Shown: positions 2,612 to 42,818 of the stretch, piece after piece
How the letters are laid out: every line of letters starts with the position of its first letter
Numbering within the stretch: position 1 is the stretch's first letter
Source: Porphyra umbilicalis
Lineage: Eukaryota > Rhodophyta > Bangiophyceae > Bangiales > Bangiaceae
Assembly: GCA_002049455.2 (NCBI GenBank)
Contig: KV918947.1
Location: 87,177-151,176, forward strand
Length of the DNA: 64,000 nt
Reading direction: 5' to 3'
Translations under genes and position numbers: made by a program
The notes under the pieces: model-generated
What the model saw: the letters and a program-made list of their open reading frames with translations, nothing else
Databases searched by the model: none
What the model was told of the DNA's origin: nothing

Positions 2612-4380
2612 CCACATGACAAGCCGCACCACCCCCGCCACCGCCAGGCCGACAAAAAGCACCAGCTGCACACCCCACGCAAGCGCAACAACACGCCGTC
2701 CCACATGACAAGCCGCACCACCCCCGCCACCGCCAGGCCGACAAAAAGCACCAGCTGCACACCCCACGCAAGCGCAACGAACACGCCGTCCCACATGACA
2801 AGCCGCACCACCCCCGCCACCGCCAGACCGACAAAAAGCACCAGCTGCACACCCCACGCAAGCGCAACGAACACGCCGTCCCACATGACAAGCCGCACCA
2901 CCCCCGCCACCACCAGGCCGACAAAAAGCACCAGCTGCACACCCCACGCAAGCGACAACGTGGACGACGTCCAACATGTCAAACCGCACCACCTCCGCCG
3001 CCACGTCCAGCTCTACGTCCGCCACAGCCACGCCGGCAAGAAGCACCAGCTGCACACCCCACGCAAGCGCAACGAACACGCCGTCCCACATGACAATCCC
3101 CACCACCCCCGCCACCGCGTCCAGCTCCACGTCGGCCACAGCCACACAGACAAGAAGCACCAGCTGCACACCCCACGCAAGCAGCAATGTGCACGCCGTC
3201 GTTCACGACAAGCCCCATCGCCTCCGCCACCACGTCCAACTCCACGTCCGCCTCAGGCACGACGGCAAGAAGCATCAGCTGCACAACCCACGGCAAGAAG
3301 CACCAGCTGCACACCCCACGCAAGCGGCAACGTGGACGACGTCCAACATGTCAAACCGCACCACCTCCGCCGCCACGTCCAGCTCCACGTCCGCCACAGC
3401 CACGCCGGCAAGAAGCACTAGCTGCACACCCGACGCAAGCGGCAACGTGCACGCCGTCCCACATGAAAAGCCGCACCACCCCCACCACCACGTCCAGCTC
3501 CACGTCCGCCACAGTCACACCCACAAGAAGCACAAAGTGCACGCCCCACGCAAGCGCAACGAACACGCCGTCCCACACGACAAACCGCACAACCCCCGCC
3601 ACCATGTCCAGCGCCACGTCGGCCTCAGCCACGCCGACAAGAAGCACAAAGTGCACGCCCCACGCAAGCGCCAACGTGCACGCCGTCGTACACGACACGC
3701 CCCATCACCTCCGCCACCACGTCCAGCTCCACGTCCGCCACAGTCACGCCCACAAGAAGCACAAAGTGCGCGCCCCACGCAAGCGCAACGAACACACCGT
3801 CCCACACGACAAACCGCTCCACCCCCGCCACCATGTCCAGTGCCACGTCGGCCACAGCCCTGCCGACAAGAAGCACAAAGTGCACGCCCCACGCAAGCGG
3901 CAACGTGCACGCCGTCTTACACGACAAGCCGCAGCACCCCCGCCACCTCGTCGTCCGCGGCAACGTCGGCCGCCGTCACTCCGACAATGAGTACCAGCTG
4001 CACGCCGCGCGCATGCGGCAACTTGCACACCGTCCCTCTCGACAAGCCGCACCACCCCCTCCACCACGTCCAGCTCCACGTCCGCCGCAGCCGCGCCACC
4101 ATTAAGAACCAATGGCACACGGAACGCAAGCGGCAGCGTGCGAGCCGTGCCACACGACAAGCTGCACCAACCCCGACACCACGTCCAGCTCCACGTCCGC
4201 CGCCGCCACGCCGGCAAAAAGTACAAACTGCACGCCTACGGCAAGCGGCAACTTGCATGCCGTGCCACACGACAAGCTGCACCAACCCCGACACCACGTC
4301 CAGCTCAACGTCCGCCGCCGCCACGCCGGCAAAAAGCACAAACTGCACGCCTACGGCAAGCGGCAACTTGCATGCCGTCG
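2612..4380 (+). repeat. Tandem repeat array, 90-bp then about 114-bp units
   Basis: The first units are almost identical and exactly 90 bp apart (starts at 2701, 2791, 2881 and 2971, preceded by one 1 nt shorter from 2612). From about 3000 the unit grows to 114-115 bp through a 24-bp insert containing cgtccagctccacgtccgcc, with about eleven degenerate copies. The plus strand is C/A-rich and almost stop-free in several frames. One plus frame reads as a Ser/Thr/Pro-rich 30-residue repeat (for example TTPATARPTKSTSCTPHAS) that could be a mucin- or wall-like protein. Another frame is His/Lys/Pro-rich. Small indels switch frames between copies and the last units (115 bp) do not keep frame, so a functional protein is doubtful. 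No start codon with a signal peptide is evident. Confidence 0.8.
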
Positions 4381-6320
4381 TATACCTCCCGCGAGTTCTG
4401 CCTCCACCTCACCACTGCCTCACCGTGGCTAAGTCGACGAGACAGGAACATGCGGCGTCGGGCCGCTTGTCAGAGGTCGCCAGAATTTCCCCACAAGATT
4501 CCGCCCCAATCGACGCCAAGTCCGTGCGTTCCGGGACATTCTCGAGAGATAGGACGAGGCTTCCGTGACCAATGTATGAATTCAACCGGTCCACGAAGCC
4601 GCGCCTGCGATTGGGCGGCTGGCCGTGTCAGGTGTTGACAGCACGTTTGAACACGTTTACTTCAGGTCCGACCTGGAAACGGAGGGGGGTCCAAAGAACA
4701 GGGATCTGCCATAGTGATGCACACATATACTTAGATCAAGGGACTTGCTCTCCGTTTCAGAGGTGGCAGCCTGCATTTGCGTCCTCAGGGATCTGAGGGC
4801 GTGTCAGTGTTGGAAGGGTCGCGATGGCGCTAAAAGCGAATAGAGTTACGTGGCTGAGAAGGACTTTCCTGCCACAGGGGTCACTGGGCCCGGACGGCGC
4901 CTGCCCCCGTGCCCCCTCTACCGCCCCGAGTTGCGCGCGGTGACCGCGCGCAGCGACTTCCGGGGCTTGATGCGCCCACGATGACCCGCGGGTGATCGTG
5001 CCTGCGCGCCGTCTTCTGTTGCGGCGGCGCGTCGGCGGTCGCTGACGCCATCTAGCGGCGCGGTTTCAGGCGCCTCGTCGCGCGGCGATCAGTCCCATCC
5101 GCCCGCCCGTGCGCCGTCTTGGCCGCCCTGCCCGCCGTGCGCAGGTGCGCTGCGCGGCGGAGTGACGGCCTCGTTCGTGGGCGCCGCGCGACGCCGGCGG
5201 GCCGCCGCCGCTGCGGTGGCGGAGGCGGCACCTCTTTCCCCGCCCGACGCCCCCCCCACTACGGCAACGTGGCTGTACGTGCCCCCGTGCGCGCTCGCGG
5301 CCATAGAGCGGGCCGGCGTGCCCGGTGTCAATGCGTCGCCGAGCGCGCCACCGCCCTGAAGAGAGGGGGAAATTTTAAAAAACAAGAGCAACGATACGAC
5401 GAGACAAAACAGGGGATGTAAGAGATAGGAGGCAGAGAGCAGGGGACGGACGTAGGGAGGAGGGGGGAGAGAGACATCTAATCAGGAAGTGGGAGAAAGA
5501 CATACGCGATGCGCAGGGAAAAACATGCATGGAGGGTAGTACATGTAGTCACGGGTCAGATGCCAGCTACAATAGTTGGCAGTGGTCGAGAGCTCCCTGT
5601 ACGGTAGTGCAACATCCGGTGCAATGACCTCGATGTAAGACACCCAATGACAGACAAACGAACGATAGACAGGAGAGGATCCAACCACAAACAGTGCGCA
5701 ACATACCTGTTGGAAGACTGGCTCAAAGGCCCAGCATGGTAGGGGGGCGCCCAGTTGGGGAGGGGGACGTTGGTGCACGACAGCAAGAGCCGGGAGAGAT
5801 CGGCACGGGCGCTCTGATCTCGGCTGACGACTGCAGTGGTCCTGCTCGCGGTGGTGGAGGGTCAGGTCATCGGAGGTTCTGCCTGTCACTCTGTGTTGCC
5901 TCCAGTCGACCGGATAAGTTCGTTATATCCATGGAGACGTCCGTCCTACCACGAGGACTACGTATGGCATAGCTCACTTTGATTGGCCGGCCATTCTTAT
6001 ATATGCTTGAAATCATTCGTCGTCTCACGAAGTACACAAGTCGTCTGTCATCGATCGACTTTACAGAGCAACTTGGGGTACGTTCTGGAGCGGCGGCAGC
6101 GGTCTCGCGCGTGCACCTCAGGTCCGAGAAGACGTCTTGGCGTCGACTGTTCGTGCAGCGAATCATCGTGGGCAAGAGGCAGTCAGGCCCGTGCAGGACC
6201 CAGACCTGGACGGTTCACGTCTTCACAATCCATTGCAGGGATATCATTGGCTTGGATTAGTGCGACAGTTTGGCATGACATCGCGATCAGCGACGAGATC
6301 GTTCAGGGCCTGGCACAGCT
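4381..6320. other. Intergenic, no supportable gene
   Basis: Between the repeat array and the inverted-repeat cluster I see only short GC-driven open frames. A GA-rich stretch runs from about 5395 to 5480. No RNA gene or conserved domain is visible. Confidence 0.5.
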
Positions 6321-6322
6321 GC

Positions 6323-6437
6323 CCTGAACGGGAACTTTTCCAGTTCAGGCCTTCGCTACAGCACAGACGCCTGGACGGGAAACCTCCCGTTCAAGGGCTT
6401 CTTGAACGGGACTCCCGTTCAGGCTCCCGTTCAAGTG
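6323..6437. repeat. Cluster of inverted GAACGGGA / TCCCGTTC motifs
   Basis: The octamer GAACGGGA or its complement occurs at about 6326, 6385, 6404, 6413 and 6425 in both orientations. Arms such as TCCCGTTCAAG and CTTGAACGGGA sit 5 nt apart and can form hairpins. This may be the subterminal region of a non-autonomous DNA element or an operator-like array. No flanking duplication was found. Confidence 0.5.
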
Positions 6438-9233
6438 TCGACTGTTCTGACGATCTGTGCGGAGAGCATGACCGGAGATATAGTGAGTCACCTGTCACAG
6501 ATGCTCGTGCGGGTGGGCCCCCGCTCACACAATCACCGTACCAGGTGGCGGCGGACCGCGGTAACGCGCCCTAGCCGCCCATTGGTTCTGCATAGCTATC
6601 CAGCAGCGCAGAGGCAGCTATCCGCCAAGACAGGGTTGGAAACCCCCAAGAGCGTTGCTCGAATCTCGCTCTCGAATGCACCGACAAATGTGGGCCCCAC
6701 ACATATGTAAACTGCCACGACCGTTTGGGTGCAGCCAGTCCTGGCGGCGGAACGACACCAGCTTTACCACCCACGCGTGTGCCAACAGCAGGGTCGCACT
6801 GCTTCAGGTGGCAGGTTGACGAGACACTTCCCTCACCGTGGCGCTAGCGGGACGCCCTGCACACCTTCGTCTCCTAGCATGCTACTACGGCCATGCGTCG
6901 CTCTGACTCAGCGCCCTCTTCCGTGGCGTTTTCTGCTTGCACCCTCGCCCGCGTCACCCGAGTCGCTCCTCCCCTCCACGGGATGGCCGGCGGCGCGCAC
7001 CCATCGTCACTACCATGGACAGTCGCATGACTCGCGGCGGGACATTTTACGTATGCCGAGCCCTCGTGGCAAGTGCCGACGGCCTGCCACCGATGTTTCT
7101 GGCTGCGCTGGCCGTCGGCAGCGACTGTGGTGGCGCCAGTTGGCCGCAAATTTATGGGCGCCCGCCCCGCCCCTGCAGGATGGCGGGGCGGCCGGGGATC
7201 AGTGGACGAAGGCGTCCCATTTTTGGTTGCCGCCGTCGCGCCCGGCCGTCCAGGGTGGACTGGGCGGCAGAAGCCACGCCGCACGACCTAGGCCCCGGCG
7301 GCCGTTACCAGAGAGCCCGTCATTGCCGTGCGAGCGCTCTTCGACCACCACATGTTGTGGATCATTGCGGTCGCGCCGGGCTCCACGGCGGGGGATGAAG
7401 AAGAATAGGGGCAACGACGGCCGGCGCGTGACAGTCTTGACCGTGGTGCCAAGTGCCAATTTCTGTGGAAGTAGCGACTGCCGCAGGACAAGGTACAGAA
7501 TTCCGTCGCTGCAGGCTTGGTCCCTTCCCTACAGAGGCCCCTACAATGCTGCCACGGGCACAACCGATGCACGCGAGCCGTCTCAAGCATAGCAGGCGGC
7601 CTCCCAGACGCGGTCGGGGCTGGCGACGCCCAGGCGAGTGTGCCGACGGCACCAGATGTGGCTGTTCGACTCCTCGGTCAGGTGAGACCCACCTGACTCA
7701 GCCCACACAGGCGCTGATTTTTCAGCCCCCCTGCGGCGCCCACCAACATAGCTGCGGCTGGCGAGCCCCCCCCCATGCCCTGCAGCTGCGGTACGCGAGC
7801 ATGGCAGGTGCCATAGTGGGAGGGAAAACAGGGGACGCTATGTTCTCTGGCTAAGCGCGTCCCTCCCGGATGAGGGCCCTTTTCCACTTCGCGCAATTAT
7901 ACCTGAATCCCGACAGCGGGCCCATCCACGCGGCCGCGCTGACAGGCCCATAAAGTTAGCAGTGGAGACTGTACAGTGTTACTGTTACTGCGGGGTGCTC
8001 ATGGCGACCCGGACGCATGCAGTTGGCGCCCGCTCTACACCTGCAAGGCCACAGAACTGAAGAGCGGGGTTGACAGGTGGCAGCTGCCACAGAAGTTGTT
8101 TGGAGCCCCGGCCTTTGGGGGACACGCCCACGGGTGGCATCGGGCCTCTTTCATCTTGACACCGGACGACAACCGCTGTTTGTTAAACATAGGGTGGGCG
8201 CCGCCGACTGACCCGTCGGCTGAAGGCGCGGGGACGGCAACCGGCACCCCGCTTGTACTGACAGCAGCATCGACCGAGCCCGCGTGCAGTACGCCCTTTT
8301 CTCAACAAAGGTTCAACGGTATGGGCGGGCTGGGCGGTCTTGACGGCTCTCCGGGGCGCCATATCAAACTGTGTTAGTTTGCGCGGAAAGCAGGCCACAC
8401 AAAACGTCCGGGAGGAGAACTCGGCAGCCGCAGCGCGCGTGGCACGTCCTGCCGCCGCGGCAGCCCCCACCCTGCCCCGCTCCATCGAGTGGCGGCGGTC
8501 GCCGCGCGCCGCGGCACCGCCGCCACCGATCGTCGGCCGGCCCCGACGCCGCTACCTCGCCCGCTCGGCCGACGCGACGGCCGCGGCGCTGGCAGCCGTT
8601 CGTGGCGGCGACGCTGTGCGGCGAGGCCGCCGCCGCGGCGGCGACGGCGGCTACGGCGGCAGCGGCGGCACCCGCAGCGCCGCTGCGGACCGGGCGGCGT
8701 GTGGGGGGTGATGGCGGCAGGCCATCTCGTGCCTGCGTGTCCGGGGGTGGAAGGCGCCCACGAGCGCCACGGGCGTGTAGCCTGTGCCGCACACTGCTGT
8801 CCTTTGGGCCGCGGACCCGCTTCTGCACGGCGTCCACCAACGATGCGAGCACGTCGGCCGAAGCCGTGCACACCACCACGTTCGAGCGCATGGTCCCCGC
8901 CAGCGCCACTATCTCGCTCTCGAAGCGCCTCGTGGCCGGCAACACGAGTAGCAAGCGATCCGAATCTCCTTCAAACAGCCAAACTCACGAGCACGTTAGG
9001 TCCAGGGTGTGGCGTGTCCCCATGTGAGACGGAAAAACGTCGGTGTGAGTCGGAAAGTCGTTCGTGTGAGACAGAAAATCGTGCCGCCGCGCCGTTGTCG
9101 CGATGGCCATCGCCCCCTCGTCGCGATGGGCGGCACCGTTACCACAAGGAGTAAAGATGAAAGAGTCACAGTGCAGAGTGGTCAAAAGTTTGGTCATTTA
9201 TGAAAGCAACAAAATGGGTCCGAGACAAGAACA
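6438..9233. other. Intergenic, no supportable gene
   Basis: Long GC-rich open frames are present on both strands (for example 6729-7592 plus and 8364-8954 minus), but they overlap in several frames at once, are Arg/Pro/Ala-rich and show no domain. I regard them as composition artefacts. Confidence 0.5.
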
Positions 9234-9321
9234 GGCGCAATGGCTTAGGGGTAAAGCGTGTCACTCGTAATGATAAGGTCCTGGGTTCGAAGCGTAACGC
9301 ACGGACGTCCCGGTTGTGCCT
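9234..9321 (+). tRNA. tRNA-Thr(CGU) with a 16-nt intron inside the T-loop
   Basis: The acceptor stem GGCGCAA (9234-9240) pairs with TTGTGCC (9314-9320) through six Watson-Crick pairs and one G-T. The D-stem GCTT/AAGC (9243-9246 and 9254-9257) closes an AGGGGTA loop. The anticodon stem TGTCA/TGATA (9259-9263 and 9271-9275) closes loop CTCGTAA with anticodon CGT at 9266-9268. The T-stem CTGGG (9281-9285) pairs with CCCGG (9309-9313). The T-loop starts TTCGAA (9286-9291) but is followed by about 16 extra bases (9292-9307 or 9293-9308) before the 3' half of the stem. Removing them gives a normal 7-nt T-loop and a 72-nt tRNA body. The insert can form a GCG-TAA-CGC mini-hairpin. Ectopic introns of this kind are known from nuclear tRNA genes of the red alga Cyanidioschyzon. 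Discriminator base is T9321. CCA is not encoded. A disrupted pseudogene is the alternative. Confidence 0.8.
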
Positions 9322-9326
9322 TATAC

Positions 9327-9330
9327 TTTT
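9327..9330 (+). terminator. RNA polymerase III T4 terminator
   Basis: A TTTT run lies 6 nt after the last base of the tRNA-Thr, as expected for a Pol III gene. This supports the far T-stem/acceptor half being the true 3' end of the transcript. Confidence 0.7.
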
Positions 9331-9521
9331 GTCACCGCTTCATCGGCGACCACGAACGATGTTTTAACGGGGCCTCTTCCTGTGAAAGCGGCTTTTGCTG
9401 GAAGTCCCAGGAGTTGCTCTCCCTAAACACGAGACGCCTCAACATGCTATTCTCATATTAACGATCATTCCAGGAGAGTCGTTCGCGAGTCCAAAAATCA
9501 TTGAAGCATCAAAAATTGATA

Positions 9522-32104: not shown

Positions 32105-34755
32105 ATGGACAAGGCGGACCCCCCCCCCGATGGCGTCGACGACGCGGCCTCCTTGACCGACGCTCGCACGCGCTCCCGCCACGCGTACCTGCGCAAGCGG
32201 GAGGAGGCCAAACTCGCCGCCCTCAAAGCCGAACTCGACGACGAGCGGGAGCTGTTTGCGGGCGCCCGCCTCACCGCCCGGGAGCGGGCGGCGATTGCGC
32301 TCAAGGAGCAGACGTACGCGTTGGCCGTGGCGCGCGCCGCCGAGGAGGCGGGGGTGGGGGGGGGGCGCCACGGCCGCCGGGGAGGGCGGCGGCGACAGCG
32401 ACGGCGACGGCGACGGCGCGCGCGGCGGCGGCGGCGACCTGGTGGGGGGGGACGCCGTCGGCCTGCGCGCGTTTGGGGAGGGCACCGCCCCGGCGGGCGG
32501 GGGGGCGCCCGCCGAGCCGCCCGTCGTGCTGCCGACGCCCGCCGGCCTCGTCGGGGGGGCGGGGGGGGGGCTCCACGGGCTCGTGACGCCGGCGCCCGCG
32601 GGGGGGGGGTGGGGGCGGCCGCGCCGCCGCCCGTGGCGCGGCGGCGGCGGTCTCGGTTCGCGCCCGACCCCGGGCGGGCGGGGGCGGGGGGGGTCCCCCC
32701 CGGCGGTGGCGGCGGCGGCGGCGCCACTGCCGCCGCGGCGCCCCCCCCCCCCTGTCGGCCGCCGAGGCGATGCAAGCGGAACGCGCGGCACTCCCTATTG
32801 CGGCCTACAAGGAGGAGCTCCTCGCCGCCCTCCGCCAGTACCAGGTGCTCATTGTCGAGGGCGAAACGGGGTCGGGCAAAACGACGCAGCTCCCCCAGTA
32901 CCTCCTCGACGGCGGTTACCGCAGCATTTGCTGCACGCAGCCGCGGCGGGTGGCGGCCATGAGCGTCGCCGCCCGCGTGGCGGCCGAGCGGAGCGTCGCC
33001 CTCGGCTCCACGGTCGGCTACTCGATCCGCTTTGAGGATTGCACGTCAGAGGCGACGGTGCTCAAGTATTTGACCGACGGCATGCTCCTCCGCGAGTTCC
33101 TCTCCGAACCCGACCTCGCCTCGTACGACGTGATTATGGTTGACGAGGCGCACGAGCGGTCGTTGTCGACAGACGTGGTGATGGGCCTCGTCAAGGACAT
33201 TGCGCGCTTTCGGGGCGACGGCCTCCGCGTCATCATTGCGTCGGCGACGCTCAACGCGTCCAAGTTTTGTGACTACTTTGACGGTGCGCCGCTCTTCTCC
33301 ATCCCGGGCCGCCGCTTTCCCGTGGACATCCTCTACACGCGCGCGCCCGAGGCCAACTACCTCGACGCCGCCGCCGTGACGGTGTTGCAGGTGCACGCGT
33401 CGCAGCCGGCGGGGGACATCCTCGTCTTTCTTGCGGGGCAGGATGAGATTGAGGACCTGGAAGAGGCGCTGCGGGAGCGCACCCGCGGGCGGGGGTCGGA
33501 GCTCGGGGAGCTCCTCATTGCCCCCATCTACGCGTCGCTGCCGTCAGAGCAGCAGGCCGCCATCTTTACGCCGACGCCGGCGGGCGCGCGCAAGGTCGTC
33601 CTCGCGACCAACATTGCGGAAACGTCCGTGACCATCCCGGGGGTCGTCTACGTCATTGACCCGGGGTTTGCCAAGCAAAAGGCGTACAACGCGGCGACGG
33701 GGATGGAGAGCCTCCTCGTCGTGCCCATCTCCCGTGCGGCGGCGGTGCAGCGCGCGGGGCGCGCCGGCCGCACGCAGGCGGGCAAGTGCTTTCGGCTCTA
33801 CACCAAGTGGTCGTTCACGCACGAGATGGAGGACCAGCCAGTGCCCGAGCTCCTCCGCTCCAACCTCGCGCAGGTCGTGCTGCTGCTCATGTCGCTCGGC
33901 ATTGACAACCTCCTCGCCTTTGATTTTGTCGACGCGCCGCCGCCCGAGACGCTCCTCCGGTCGCTCGAACTCCTCTACGCCCTCGGCGCGCTGTCGCCCG
34001 CGGGGAAGCTGACCAAGCGGGGCCGGCGGATGGCGGAGCTGCCCCTCGAGCCCCTCATGGCCGCCGCCGTCGTGGCGTCAGAGACGTATGGCTGCACGGA
34101 GGAGGTCATCACCATTTGCGCGATGCTGTCGGTGGCCGGCGCCCTCTTTTACCGCCCCAAAGCCAAGGCCGTCCTCGCCGACGCGGCACGGGCGGCGTTT
34201 GCCCGCGCGTCGGCGGGCCGCGGCGGCGGCGGCGGCGGCGGGGGGGACCACCTGGCGCTCCTCGCGTGTTACAACCAGTGGCGCGACAGCGGCCACTCGA
34301 CGCAGTGGTGTTACGAGAATTTCGTGCAGGTGCGCTCCCTCCGCCGCGCGCGGGACGTGCGGGAGCAACTCGACGCGCTCCTCGACCGCGTCGACGTGCC
34401 GCGGGCGTCGGTGCTCGACGCGGGCGACGGCGACTTGACGCCGGTCGTCAAGGCGCTGACCGCTGGGTACTTTCCGCACGCGTGTCGGTTGACCAAGGCG
34501 GGCCTGTACCGCACCGTCAAGGGCGGCACAACCGTCCACGTGCACCCGTCATCGGCGCTGTATCGCTCCGAGCGGCTGCCGCGGTACGTCTTGTACCACG
34601 AGCTGGTGCTCACGTCCAAGGAGTTTATGCGGGCTGTGAGTGAAATCGAGCCGGGCTGGCTGCGGGAAGTCGCCCCGCACTATTATACGGAGCAAGACGT
34701 GGACGTGGCGGCGGCGTCGGCCAAGATGCCCCGCGCCGTTGGCCGCCGCTCCTAG
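32105..34755 (+). CDS. DHX16: DEAH-box RNA helicase of the Prp2/DHX16 type, with frame breaks in the N-terminal linker
   Basis: The uninterrupted frame from the ATG at 32770 (661 residues) carries the whole motor. It has Walker A GETGSGKT (31-38), [20 protein letters not shown] (125-128), [24 protein letters not shown] and QRAGRAGR (327-334), followed by HA2 and OB-fold regions with a poly-Gly insert. The real start is probably ATG 32105 (accATGG). It opens a charged segment, [20 protein letters not shown] followed by an acidic DDERELF block, that matches the conserved N-terminal region of Prp2/DHX16. The linker between 32350 and 32752 changes frame at G10 runs (32356-32365, 32600-32609) and at the C12 run 32741-32752. 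Prp2 activates the spliceosome before the first catalytic step. The gene is intronless and convergent with the TIR-kinase gene. Confidence 0.85.
32741..32752 (+). repeat. C12 homopolymer ahead of the helicase core
   Basis: Twelve C lie just before the codons for Leu-Ser-Ala-Ala-Glu-Ala-Met that lead into the helicase core. The ATG-32105 frame would join the core if the run were 13 or 10. Confidence 0.85.
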
Positions 34756-35235: not shown

Positions 35236-36306
35236 TCAATTGTGGTTGCCGACGCGGTGGCAGAGAAAGTCGAGCCGCCGCACCAGGTCTGGCGTCTTGG
35301 GTCGCCGCGACGGCTCGTCCCGCATGCATGCAATGATCATCTCGCGGAGCTCGGGGATGCACAACTCGGGGCTGGTTGGCGACGGCGGGGGGATTTGGAG
35401 CTTCTCCCCGCGGCTGCCCACACGAAAGACCACCTGCATGGGGTGGTCGTCCCGCCACGGCTTTTCGCACATGACCAGCTCCCAGAGGATGACGCCAAAC
35501 GAGAAGACGTCCGACTGCTCGTCAAACGGATCCTGCCGCAGCAGCTCTGGGGCCATCCACTCGGGCGTGCCGCCGGGCCCCGTGTTGACGTACGAGGAGA
35601 CGCGGAGGCGGGAGAGCCCAAAGTCAGTGATCTTGACCTCCCGCACGTTGGTGCCGAGGAGGATGTTTGGGGACTTGCAGTCCCGGTGGATCACCACCGG
35701 GTACTGCGAGTGGAGGTAGTCGAGGCCCTTGGCAACGCCAAATGCAATCCACAGCGTCTTGAGCAGCGGGAACGGCCCGAGGTTGTTCCGCCGCCGCCGG
35801 TGGATGGCCCGGTACAGGGAGCCGCCGGGCATAAACTCGAGGATGATGGCCAGGTTGGGGTGGTGGATGCACGCGCCGAGGAAGGTGACCACGTTGGGGT
35901 GTTCGAGCATGCTCATCAGCTTCATCTCAACCATGAATTCCGCCATGACCGCGTGCGGGTCGTCGTCCTCCACCTTTTGCAGCGTCTTGGCGGCGACCAT
36001 GGTGCGGTCGAGCTTGCACTTGTACACCTCCCCAAAGCCGCCGGCGCCAATGCGGGGGCCAAACACCAGGGACTTGAAGTCGACCGCCCACTGGTCCCGC
36101 CACGTGCGATCGAAAAACGTTTGGGAGACGGTCTCGTTGGGCGTCGGCTCATTCTCCGTGTCGGAGAAGAGCTCCCCTTGCTTCATACCATCCTTCTTCA
36201 TCAGCAGCGTGTCGGCCAACCGCAGCGGCGCCGGTGGCCGATGCGCACTGCCGTTGAGCCTCCTGCCGTGGCCGCCGCCGCCGCGGCCTTCACGACCACC
36301 GCCGCC

Positions 36307-36337
<31 letters not shown>

Positions 36338-38564
36338 CCATCGTCCCGACCACCACCGCCGTCGCGCCCGCCCGCGGCGGCCGCTCCGGCGCCACCCTTG
36401 CCCGGCACCGTGTTGCCGAGGTCCCGCTCCGCCCCCCCCCGCCCGTCCGCGCGCGATGCTTTGCCACCCGGGGGCACCCCCCCGCCCGACGAGCCGGCCC
36501 GCTCCCGCCCCGACCGCCCCGTCGTCGCGCCCGTTGCGCCCGGCCCCACCCGCACGGCGCTGCCCGACCCTCCATTGACCATGCCGAGGAGGTCGTCCCC
36601 ATCCTCGTCCGGGGGCCCCGTGTCCACGTCGTCCAGCCCCGCGAGCGCGAGGAGGATCTCGTCGAGGAGCATCCGCGCCGACTCAAACGCCGCCTCCCGG
36701 CAGTCAATGCCCTCGGTCGCAACCAGCCGCCGCGCGAGCGGCGTCAAGTCGCAAGAGCGCCAAAAGAGGGGGATGATAAAGTTGCCCTGCGAGTCGAAAT
36801 CTCGGCAGTAGGCCAACGAGAAGGCCTCTGTACACTCCACCGAGTGGAAATACTCGTCTGATAGCAGGGCGAGAAAGACGCGGGACTGGTTGATCGCCTC
36901 CATCACCGGCTCGTGCACAACGCCCCGCTTGCGCACCGACACCGACCGCGGCTCGGCATTGTACACCCGCATCCGCGTGCTGTCCTTCTCCCGCAAATAG
37001 TTGATCATGCGGAGCGCAGCGTCCGCGTCCGCCTGCGCGTAGGAGAAGAAAACGTCGTACGTGACGGGCGAACGAGGGGAGGAGGGCAGCGACGGGGCGG
37101 TGGAGGAGGTCATGGAGATGGCCGACGACGCTGCCGACTGCAGGCCGGAAGCCCCGAGCGCGCTCGGCGAGCGGGCCCCCGACGGGGCGCGTTGAAAGGA
37201 GGAGTTTTTGGGGCTCGGCAGCCCGAGCGGCGCCGCCACCGCCACCGCCGAGGTGGACGGTCCGAGGCCTGCCGACGGCACCGACGCGATCGGCGCGCCC
37301 GACGAGGTCAACAACCGCAGGCGCGCACGCGTAAACATCTCCACGTCCTTGGTGATGTCCGTGTCTGGGAGGAGGATTTTGACCGTCTTGAGCGGCAGCC
37401 CCATTTGCATCCACGCAAACGACACCTCCACGGCGGCTTGCACAAAGTGCTTCCGGCGGCTCGGGCTGAGCAGCGCCCCAGACAGGGGGATGAGCACCGA
37501 CGAAATTTGCACGTCGCCGCCAATGACCGTCGTCAAGCACTTCATAATGTCGAGGACGATGTTGTCGTCGCGGGTTAGCTCGTCGCCGGGGTCCTCGTAC
37601 ACGAGCAGCCGCTTGTACTCAAAGCCGGCCGGCCGCTGCGCGCGTTGGAGTTTGCGGCTGAGCCAACAGTGGTAGTGCCGCCGGTAGCTGGCTTGCGGCT
37701 TGGACTCCCGCTCCAGCTGCTCGAGGCTGATACCCGACCGGTTGAGCGCCGCGAGCGCCGAATCCCGGTTGCCCTTGTAGCTGCCCCGCTCCCGCAGGTA
37801 GACAATCAGCAGGTCCGTCTCGTCGACGGGGGCGAGGCCCTCCACAGAGCCCTGCATCAGCTCGATGCGGCCAGTGTAGTCCTTCCTAAGCACATTGATA
37901 AACGCCTGGCGAACGAGGCCGAGCTGCGCCGGCGGCCCGTAGCGGGAGCCCGTCGAGCACGCCGACGCGGAGCGCTCTGGGAGGTCGGGCGCGCTGCCGC
38001 TGCCGCCGCCGCCGCCGTCGCCGCCGCCGCCACCACCACCACCCGAGCTCGGCGGCGCAAACGGCTCCTTCCCCGACGACGTCCGCAGGGGCACCCCGCG
38101 GCCCGTCGAGCCCTCCCGCCCCCGCGGCGTGGACGGCAACGAGGCGGCCTCCGACGCCTCGCGCGACGGCGGCGCGGGCGCACTCGCCCCCACATCCGAC
38201 GCTGCCGACGGGAGCGGTCCCGGCGGGGGCGTCCCCCCCATGCCGGCGGCGCCCGGCGACGCGCCGACGCCCCCCCCGCCCCCCCCGCCGCCGCCGCCCC
38301 CACCCCCCCCCGCTCCCCATACGCCCCCGACGGGCTGGCCGCGTGCGCCGACGAGCGGCGGGTGGGGAGGCCGTGGCCCGCCCGGTCGTCGTCGCCCGCG
38401 CCCGCGGTGAGGCGCTTAAACGGGGGGGGACTGCCTTTGCGTCTCCTCCGCCCGCCGGGCGCAGCGTCGGCGTCGGCAACGACGGCGGCGACCGCCGCCG
38501 CCGACGCGCGCGTCCGCCGCCGCGTCGAGGAGCGGGTGCGGACGGTGGAGAGGACGGTGCCCAT
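35236..38564 (-). CDS. TIR-domain plus Raf-like (TKL) protein kinase, probably N-myristoylated
   Basis: The continuous frame from ATG 38241 encodes 1001 residues. Residues about 110-303 form an unrecognised alpha/beta region that may be macro-domain-like (VLIPLSGALLS, LPLKTVKILLPD). Residues about 394-530 are a TIR domain (TYDVFFSYAQAD, FLALLSDEYFHS, FIIPLFW). A Gly/Ser-rich linker follows, including a run of about 15 Gly. Residues about 725-990 are a TKL/Raf-type kinase with IGAGGFGEVY (from 731), Lys752, HRDCKSPN (Asp854), DFG (Asp873) and GGTPEWMAPELL, all catalytic residues present. A better start lies upstream at 38564 in a perfect Kozak context (gccaccATGG) encoding MGTVLS, an N-myristoylation consensus. 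It is in another frame and must join across the C-run region 38233-38309. The TIR acidic residue near VECTEA is shifted by one from the plant position, so NADase activity is uncertain. Confidence 0.85.
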
Positions 38565-41762: not shown

Positions 41763-42818
41763 ATGTCTGGCTCCACTGCCATGCGGGCGCTGACGCGCGG
41801 CCACGGCGGCCGGGCGTCGGTGTCTGGCGTGACCGCGTCGGTCTTTGGCGGCACCGGCTTCCTCGGCCGCTACGTCGTCAACGCGCTCGGGCGGATCGGC
41901 TCGCAGGTCGTCACGCCTTACCGCGGGGATGAGCTTGAGTCGCGCCGCCTGCGGCTGATGGGCGACCTCGGCCAAATTGTGCCGATGCCGTTTGAGCTCC
42001 GCGACGCGGCGTCGGTCGGCCGCGCCGTTGCCCCCTCCTCGGTCGTCATCAACCTTATCGGCAAGGCCTACCCGACGCGGTACTACACCTTGGAGCAGGC
42101 GCACGTGGATGCGCCCCGGACGCTGGCGCGGGCGGCCGCCGAGGCCGGCGCCGCCCACTTTGTGCACGTCTCGACGGTCGCCCCGCCGCCGTCGGCGGTC
42201 GTTGGCCGCTCCGAGTGGTTCCGCACCAAGGCTGCCGGCGAGGCGGCGGTGCGGGAGGAGTTCCCCACCGCGACGATTGTGCGGGTCACGGAAATGTTTG
42301 GCGCCGAAGACCGCTTCCTGACCCGCATGGGCGAGTGGACCGCCAAGTACCGCGCGGTGTTTATGGCGGGCGACGGCACCGCGCCGGTGCAGCCGGTGCA
42401 CGTGCGGGATGTGGCGGCGGCGGTCGCCACCGCCGCGCGGGACGTGGAGGGCTTCCGCGGGCGGGACGTGGAGGTTGGTGGCGCGGACGTCGTGCCCCTC
42501 GCCGAAGTCGTTGAGTTTGTCAAGGCGGCGACTAAGCGGGACGTGCCGGCGGTGGCGGTGCCGACCATGGTCATGGAGGCGGCGGTCGGGCTAACGGGCA
42601 AGCGGCTGCCGTTTGTCAATGCCACGCCCCGGTGGTCCGTGGAGGACGTGCGGCGGGAGGCGGCGGGCGTGGCGCTATCGACGACGCCGGCGGAGGGGGT
42701 GCTGCGGTTGTCGGATATGGGCATCGTGCCGGTGACGTACGATGGGGAGTTTGGGGAGGAGGTGCTCCGCCGGTTCCACAAGGGCGGCGACCGGAGTGCG
42801 CTATTCTACACGCACTAG
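41763..42818 (+). CDS. NDUFA9: NADH dehydrogenase (ubiquinone) 1 alpha subcomplex subunit 9-like protein
   Basis: The 351-residue protein has the atypical short-chain dehydrogenase fold of the complex I 39-kDa accessory subunit. The nucleotide-binding motif GGTGFLGR is at residues 29-36. It is followed by the family-typical string VVTPYRGDELESRRLRLMGD, then VINLIGKAYPT, AAHFVHVSTVA, and PVHVRDVAAAVATAARD. Length fits the family (about 350-400). The N-terminus is short and contains Arg residues, compatible with a mitochondrial presequence (MSGSTAMRALTRGHGGRA). The start ATG 41763 is in a good context (caaccATGT) and no upstream in-frame ATG is compelling. In complex I this subunit binds NADPH structurally at the matrix side. 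The gene is intronless and convergent with the cap methyltransferase. Confidence 0.92.
   Translation: MSGSTAMRALTRGHGGRASVSGVTASVFGGTGFLGRYVVNALGRIGSQVVTPYRGDELESRRLRLMGDLGQIVPMPFELRDAASVGRAVAPSSVVINLIGKAYPTRYYTLEQAHVDAPRTLARAAAEAGAAHFVHVSTVAPPPSAVVGRSEWFRTKAAGEAAVREEFPTATIVRVTEMFGAEDRFLTRMGEWTAKYRAVFMAGDGTAPVQPVHVRDVAAAVATAARDVEGFRGRDVEVGGADVVPLAEVVEFVKAATKRDVPAVAVPTMVMEAAVGLTGKRLPFVNATPRWSVEDVRREAAGVALSTTPAEGVLRLSDMGIVPVTYDGEFGEEVLRRFHKGGDRSALFYTH

Follow-up and report, generated by a model that had tools for sequence, protein, structure and literature searches.

Genes joining a TIR domain to a protein kinase are already listed for one red alga, Pyropia yezoensis, with two TIR+Pkinase genes, py01330.t1 and py08661.t1 (PMC6928737, Table 1). 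In red rot disease one of the two was 1.51- and 1.59-fold up and the other 1 and 1.27 (PMC6928737). In land plants TIR-Pkinase is named among the domain combinations of R genes (PMC4234491); the four TIR groups common to land plants have no Chondrus crispus member, TIR-NBARC-WD40 proteins being mentioned there (PMC9806590). Cooperation of a TIR domain with a macrodomain is described for type II Thoeris (ThsB TIR and ThsA TM-macro), where the macrodomain oligomerises on its ligand and the output, proposed to be membrane perturbation, is at the membrane (PMC11204291, PMC12847820). Here we describe a gene of the red alga Porphyra umbilicalis, found in a stretch of 64,000 nucleotides of contig KV918947.1 (positions 87,177 to 151,176; the window), which is predicted to code for a macrodomain, a TIR domain and a TKL kinase in one chain.

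Most probably (we would put it at about 0.55), the protein is a red algal signalling kinase, likely lipid-anchored, in which a retired macro-TIR module serves as the sensor or assembly platform that switches a CTR1/Raf-like kinase. Alignments and structure models show that the N-terminal half combines a macrodomain with a TIR and shares ancestry with a family of two-domain macro-TIR proteins in prokaryotes, and that the C-terminal half is a CTR1/Raf-like kinase. Column comparisons within the red algal family show that the glutamate for cleavage of nicotinamide adenine dinucleotide (NAD+) in the TIR and the adenine-binding aspartate of the macrodomain are replaced and that the kinase motifs are intact.

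Domains of the protein and their prokaryotic relatives

A first-pass annotation, made from the letters of the window, had placed a TIR domain, a complete TKL kinase and a possible macro-like alpha/beta region in a single frame, and each of them was recovered. Pfam TIR_2 matches residues 397–518 with 41.8 bits, above the curated cut-off of 28 (E 1.8e-10). The PDB search was made with a 9-row TIR profile because single-sequence phmmer was weak (E 0.02 and up). The structure model of the TIR was compared by Foldseek and, with a less clear outcome, by VIA, in whose ranking TIRs did not come first. NCBIfam gave kinase models far under their cut-offs and a weak FxsC TIR-like match for the window protein.

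The kinase domain is matched by Pfam PK_Tyr_Ser-Thr (E 3.8e-54) and carries the motifs described in the first pass: GAGGFG(EVY) from residue 732, K752, HRDCKS at 852 and DFG at 873. Across the red family K752 is kept in 93/93, the HRD Asp in 88/88 and the DFG Asp in 87/88 rows with a letter. Its Raf-like identity also held: among the best 60 of 154 matches the solved kinases in the first two places both belong to CTR1 (E 2.6e-61 and 1.3e-60), followed by one 678-residue chain named EGFR (3.6e-52) and then by MLK, DLK and Raf kinases. By its intact motifs and its nearest relatives the domain is a TKL kinase, CTR1/Raf-like.

The region ahead of the TIR matches no Pfam family (7/7 members checked) and has two chance-level matches among PDB sequences (E 1.6 and 1.7). 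Its predicted model (residues 95–316; predicted local distance difference test score 85.1, predicted template modelling score 0.84) nevertheless has a macro fold, the top Foldseek match being the macroH2A macrodomain. Direct comparison by hhalign (profile versus profile) of the red N-domain with 14 macrodomains gave a probability of 0.5 over 11 columns. The profile links run through prokaryotic relatives: red versus prokaryotic N-domain has a probability of 99.7 (E 1.1e-25), and prokaryotic N-domain versus the 14 macrodomains one of 95 (E 3.7e-8; 157 columns, GDLT facing GDIT), or 62 (E 7.4e-5) with the first 4 macrodomains only. These two links connect the algal N-domain with macrodomains through shared ancestry, in addition to the fold seen in the model.

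The prokaryotic proteins are a family for which no established name was found. A profile of the macro-TIR half retrieved 27 proteins, namely 16 of the 92 red algal homologues described below, ten further fragments or relatives (P0094–P0103) and a single outlier. This protein, P0104, has 357 residues and is a macro-TIR with no kinase (E 1.2e-20). With P0104 as query, 49 proteins of 290–522 residues were found, itself included, the named ones coming from Zoogloea (P0124), Kofleriaceae (P0127) and Agriterribacter. A scan of GTDB genomes gave at least 13 macro-TIR genes in 12 genomes among the best 80 loci; the hosts are Pseudomonadota, Cyanobacteriota, Chloroflexota, Actinomycetota, Bacteroidota, Candidatus Uabimicrobium amorphum (complete genome) and a Heimdallarchaeota metagenome-assembled genome (L014, 5985–7277; host by bin assignment only). 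The 49 proteins can be aligned end to end with the algal macro-TIR half (13 red rows), and no kinase model was found on them (18 scanned in a follow-up). In a tree of 41 rows the 12 red rows stand apart from all prokaryotic rows with full support; this tree points to no donor lineage.

The scan of neighbouring genes covered 10 of 12 prokaryotic loci; L011 was left out, and L014 is represented by the macro-TIR gene alone. The gene order at L016 (Chitinophagaceae, 4357–9405) is patatin, TPR-S/MAP3K_TRAF_bd, macro-TIR, TIR, a cluster that resembles a conflict system built round the macro-TIR. At L013 a DUF4062-NACHT-WD40 protein lies ahead of the macro-TIR gene, and at L009 (6970–9421, Candidatus Uabimicrobium amorphum) two successive macro-TIR genes follow a kinase-TPR gene located two genes upstream. 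Elsewhere the neighbours are ordinary or nameless, e.g. methionine synthase and transposase. Since the neighbours are mixed, no single conserved partner gene emerges across the 10 scanned loci; the clusters hint that the prokaryotic proteins may act in conflict. When PADLOC was run on 4 of the 49 proteins, its matches were confined to the TIR region, with PDC-S66 the best (E 2.4e-16), and the full-length proteins were assigned to no system. One metagenomic protein (P0138) fuses an HSP70 match to the macro-TIR.

Conservation and nucleotide sites in the red algal family

A word-based protein search with residues 80–550 (about 8000 candidates scored per search) retrieved 92 proteins, all with E values of 2.5e-100 or better. 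The TIR model is found in all 92 and kinase models also in 90 (P0005 and P0043 have the TIR only), which bears out the joined architecture across red algae. At least six records with transcriptome names (P0013, P0016, P0026, P0036, P0052, P0086) hold TIR and kinase in one open reading frame (ORF). The named members are all red algae: Chondrus (two), Porphyridium, Pyropia haitanensis, Gracilariopsis and Gracilaria, as well as Porphyra, Rhodosorus, Purpureofilum, Madagascaria and Timspurckia (lineages checked for four). No match named as Cyanidiophyceae appeared among these candidates, most matches being nameless and no dedicated search having been made.

The Porphyra genome has two family copies, the window gene and one of the same domain order on contig C71. 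No other TIR_2 match was found in six frames of this draft assembly, and PF01582 gave none at E 0.01. Because its two members are the only TIR_2 matches in the genome, the family may be the main TIR pathway of Porphyra. The only Pfam Macro match of the genome is a YmdB-like domain (L004, G000:C430:6808-7164); viral contigs scanned with this canonical macrodomain showed no relative. A tree (quick method, midpoint root) was made from 88 rows, the 94 less six that were too short, and falls into two groups of 44. Since each contains one Porphyra and one Chondrus gene, the gene duplication seems to be no younger than the divergence of these two lineages.

In the alignment of up to 94 sequences, columns with at least 95% identity make up 107/193 of the macrodomain, 57/138 of the TIR and 147/263 of the kinase, against 1/79, 0/8 and 7/81 of the linkers; judged from these columns, the conservation of the domains relative to the linkers is more than chance. 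Such conservation of macrodomain and kinase would also suit a protein that is mainly a CTR1-like housekeeping regulator and not immune, its macro-TIR half autoinhibiting the kinase and sensing a metabolite. Two paralogues are retained in Porphyra and Chondrus, the named species are both unicellular and multicellular, and CTR1, whose entries are the nearest to this kinase among the matches listed above, is a negative regulator of ethylene signalling. We nevertheless hold this explanation to be rather unlikely, since relatives of the N-terminal half stand beside conflict-type genes at at least 2 of the 10 scanned loci (L013 and L016) and in Pyropia yezoensis one of the two TIR+Pkinase genes goes up in disease (PMC6928737).

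The proposed retirement of the macro-TIR module is judged from single columns. The catalytic glutamate, required for TIR activity (PMC9806590), is expected three residues past the Cys of an SxxYxxSxxC motif, and none of the 94 red sequences has Glu there: column 473 is Ala in 85, Thr in 4, Ser in 3 and Asn in 2. Of the 49 prokaryotic macro-TIRs, 48 carry Glu in the same column and the remaining one Asp, and in 78 other TIR domains from 68 loci, collected via a profile built from Glu-bearing relatives, the place is taken by Glu in 76, by Gln in one and by a gap in one. The register follows from a stretch aligned without gaps, in which S461, Y464, S467, C470, F474, A477 and R480 match. In the PDB profile alignments the Glu of Cat1 and of TLR2 faces Ala473, as does the position mutated in RUN1 E100A (7s2z). 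The TIR chemistry envisaged in the first pass is therefore not borne out, and the reading as a standard TIR NADase is, on these alignments, rejected for the replaced position in all red sequences.

The macrodomain has changed as well. The Asp of the GD[IL] motif (column 132), whose role in adenine binding is described for D83 of EcThsA (PMC11204291), is present in 48/48 prokaryotic sequences and 10/14 ordinary macrodomains and in none of the 92 red sequences that have the position. Column 257 in the phosphate loop is Gly in 48 and His in 1 of 49 prokaryotic proteins, and Leu in 93/93 red ones. The distal-ribose motif of NAAN type, whose last Asn occurs in 13/14 macrodomains, is absent, with YLRER in the window protein and SAFP in the prokaryotic relatives. 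By these three sites a canonical ADP-ribose reader appears to be ruled out, and a canonical readout of the ADP-ribose signal that the first pass had thought possible is not supported.

The TIR could still be enzymatic if Glu472, one residue ahead of the catalytic place, stood in for the missing Glu and the macrodomain of the same chain read an NAD-derived signal and so switched the kinase. Glu472 is invariant (94/94) and Glu469 is found in 92/94; two adjacent Glu both matter in maize TNP-IIa (PMC9806590), and the TIR is the signal maker and the macrodomain the reader in TM-macro Thoeris (PMC11204291). However, the ungapped alignment through C470, F474, A477 and R480 sets the catalytic Glu opposite Ala473, Glu is near-universal at that place in both comparison sets, and positions 132 and 257 of the macrodomain are changed too, so that this explanation is unlikely.

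Gene model and N-terminal anchoring

The minus-strand frame is continuous over all 1001 residues (Table 1). The public protein BU14_0289s0021 (P0097) is identical to the window gene in the matched part, and it is regenerated by scripted removal of two segments of 59 and 28 bases. Its model starts at the ATG of MGTVLS and joins the long frame through a 59-base intron (38260–38202). The first-pass annotation had pointed to this ATG at 38564, which exists but is out of frame with the 1001-residue ORF. The 59-base segment may be an intron or may cover an indel in G runs. Between 38001 and 40000 of the window G+C rises up to 81%. Long runs of G and of C lie at the gene's 5' end and further upstream, and assembly indels are likely there. 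In the paralogue on contig C71, compared with P0002, the MG start sits in a separate exon.

The second cut of the public model (37060–37033, 28 bases) shifts the frame, and the protein ends at 490 residues, which accounts for the lack of both TIR and kinase in the public record. Since the 28 bases code for the first TIR strand, which is kept ungapped in 94/94 aligned rows (residues 396–402; SY at 400–401 in 92/94), this intron is almost certainly an error, and the annotation needs correction. That the joining of TIR and kinase is itself an artefact of annotation or assembly, as the end of the public model before the TIR and the need for a splice or an indel at the 5' end might suggest, has a negligible chance given the continuous frame, the same order in the paralogue of the same genome and the presence of both domains in 90/92 homologues, some with transcriptome names.

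The start MGTVLS fits the pattern of Gly2 with Ser/Thr/Cys at position 6. Out of 101 red records 93 start with Met, 40 of these with MG and 30 with MGxxx[STC], and eight further red records have MGN further in; the background at 2142 internal Met is 133 MG and 19 MGxxx[STC]. As these starts are far commoner than at internal Met, the N-myristoylation signal noticed in the first pass is supported. A start of this type is common in the family, and the protein is therefore likely to be a lipid-anchored signalling kinase.

Table 1. Features of the macro-TIR-kinase gene in window coordinates.
Feature	Position	Strand	Basis
Macrodomain + TIR + TKL kinase open frame, 1001 residues	35236..38241	-	ORF, Pfam, 94-sequence alignment
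Predicted exon 1, N-myristoylation-type start MGTVLS	38261..38564	-	Public model BU14_0289s0021; MG start frequent in red algal family
59-base intron (public model) or indel in nearby G runs; links MGTVLS to the long frame	38202..38260	-	
Divergent macrodomain, residues 107-300	37342..37923	-	Model, Foldseek, VIA; profile link via prokaryotic relatives
Ser132, opposite the adenine-recognising Asp of macrodomains	37846..37848	-	Column comparison
28-base "intron" of public model; codes YDVFFSYAQ, first TIR strand	37033..37060	-	Alignment rows 94/94 ungapped at 396-402
TIR domain, residues 395-533	36643..37059	-	Pfam, PDB profile search, model, Foldseek (VIA less clear)
Glu472, one residue ahead of the catalytic place, invariant 94/94	36826..36828	-	94-sequence alignment
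Ala473, opposite the catalytic Glu of TIR NADases	36823..36825	-	Alignments
Gly-rich low-complexity linker between TIR and kinase; conserved stretch right ahead of kinase	36076..36642	-	Alignment
Protein kinase of TKL class (CTR1/Raf-like) with intact motifs, residues 727-990	35272..36063	-	Pfam, PDB search, alignment

Outside this gene the window holds an RNA helicase ORF on the plus strand at 32770–34755 (Helicase_C, HA2, OB_NTP_bind; DEAH motif), convergent with the macro-TIR-kinase gene, and an ORF of the NAD-dependent epimerase family at 41763–42818, which we take to be perhaps an NDUFA9-like subunit of complex I. ARAGORN calls a tRNA-His at 32597–32675 in a G+C-rich stretch, possibly a false call.

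Proposed working and known systems

In the working proposed here, the macro-TIR module would no longer make or read ADP-ribose in the standard way. It would act as a sensor and self-assembly platform that responds to a signal by assembling, or by a change of conformation, at the membrane, and this assembly would gather the kinase domains and activate them. The oligomerisation considered in the first pass is thus far a possibility. The signal would pass onward most likely via a cascade of mitogen-activated protein kinase type. The most likely setting would be stress or pathogen signalling, to which the weak published expression data point.

Two points weigh against this picture. The strong conservation of the family is unlike that of an arms-race receptor and would suit a signal at the core of stress responses or growth. 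Further, the TIR may have an altered activity via Glu472. Given that this residue never varies in the family and that each of two neighbouring Glu was important in the maize protein, residual or altered TIR chemistry stays a real rival.

As to origin, it is possible, at somewhat less than even odds, that an early red algal fusion joined a prokaryotic-type macro-TIR to a CTR1/Raf-like kinase with both nucleotide sites disabled, giving a membrane-anchored one-protein counterpart of the animal relay from TIR adaptor to TKL kinase. If the fusion and the retirement of the sites are true, the conserved new surface of the macrodomain would be a new kind of binding site. The prokaryotic and algal proteins form a before-and-after pair, with NAD sites intact in the one and both changed and a kinase gained in the other, which makes the general question of the passage from immune-type enzyme to signalling scaffold directly testable with few proteins. 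The family bears on the mode of TIR signalling in algae, and laver (Porphyra/Pyropia) is a farmed crop with an oomycete disease.

In the literature searched, whose coverage was partial and included few subscription papers, there are no papers on "macro-TIR" or "TIR-macro"; the macrodomain, the relatives in prokaryotes and the replaced sites go unmentioned, and PMC6928737 is the only paper to the point on TIR + kinase in red algae. The first-pass remark that no well-described algal pathway has this order fits that literature, except that TIR+Pkinase genes had already been listed for Pyropia yezoensis (PMC6928737). Those genes resemble ours in having TIR and kinase in one red algal protein and two genes per genome, as in Porphyra; they are described by the two Pfam domains, and the macrodomain, the myristoylation start, the lost Glu and the red algal spread are not given in the available text (PMC6928737). 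The likeness to the TIR-Pkinase R genes of land plants is one of domain label alone and not of sequence (PMC4234491). Unlike the algal protein, type II Thoeris consists of separate proteins with an active TIR, its macrodomain binds ADP-ribose and IAD, and there is no kinase (PMC11204291, PMC12847820); in place of its two genes, the algal macrodomain and TIR share one chain with the kinase.

The prokaryotic macro-TIRs (P0104, P0124, P0127, L009) have the same order of macrodomain and TIR as the algal protein but no kinase model; they keep the catalytic Glu and the adenine Asp, and 0/49 start with MG. The plant CTR1/EDR1 Raf-like kinases are like it in the kinase, CTR1 being the nearest solved domain among the matches given above; their N-terminal halves are unrelated and are not known to contain a TIR or macrodomain. 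The animal ASK (MAP3K5) signalosome joins a part of prokaryotic conflict systems to a MAP3K-type kinase. This part is the TPR-S (PMC8195603). Unlike the algal protein, ASK is built on a TPR scaffold and not on a macro-TIR, TPR-S and macro-TIR standing side by side, among the loci scanned here, only in the Chitinophagaceae cluster L016. In the MyD88-IRAK4 step of the animal TLR pathway, non-enzymatic TIR assembly turns on a TKL-class kinase; unlike in the algal protein, the partners are separate, meet via death domains and are not known to have a macrodomain. The parallel between this relay and the predicted algal signalling kinase is, by analogy, one of working and not of membership.

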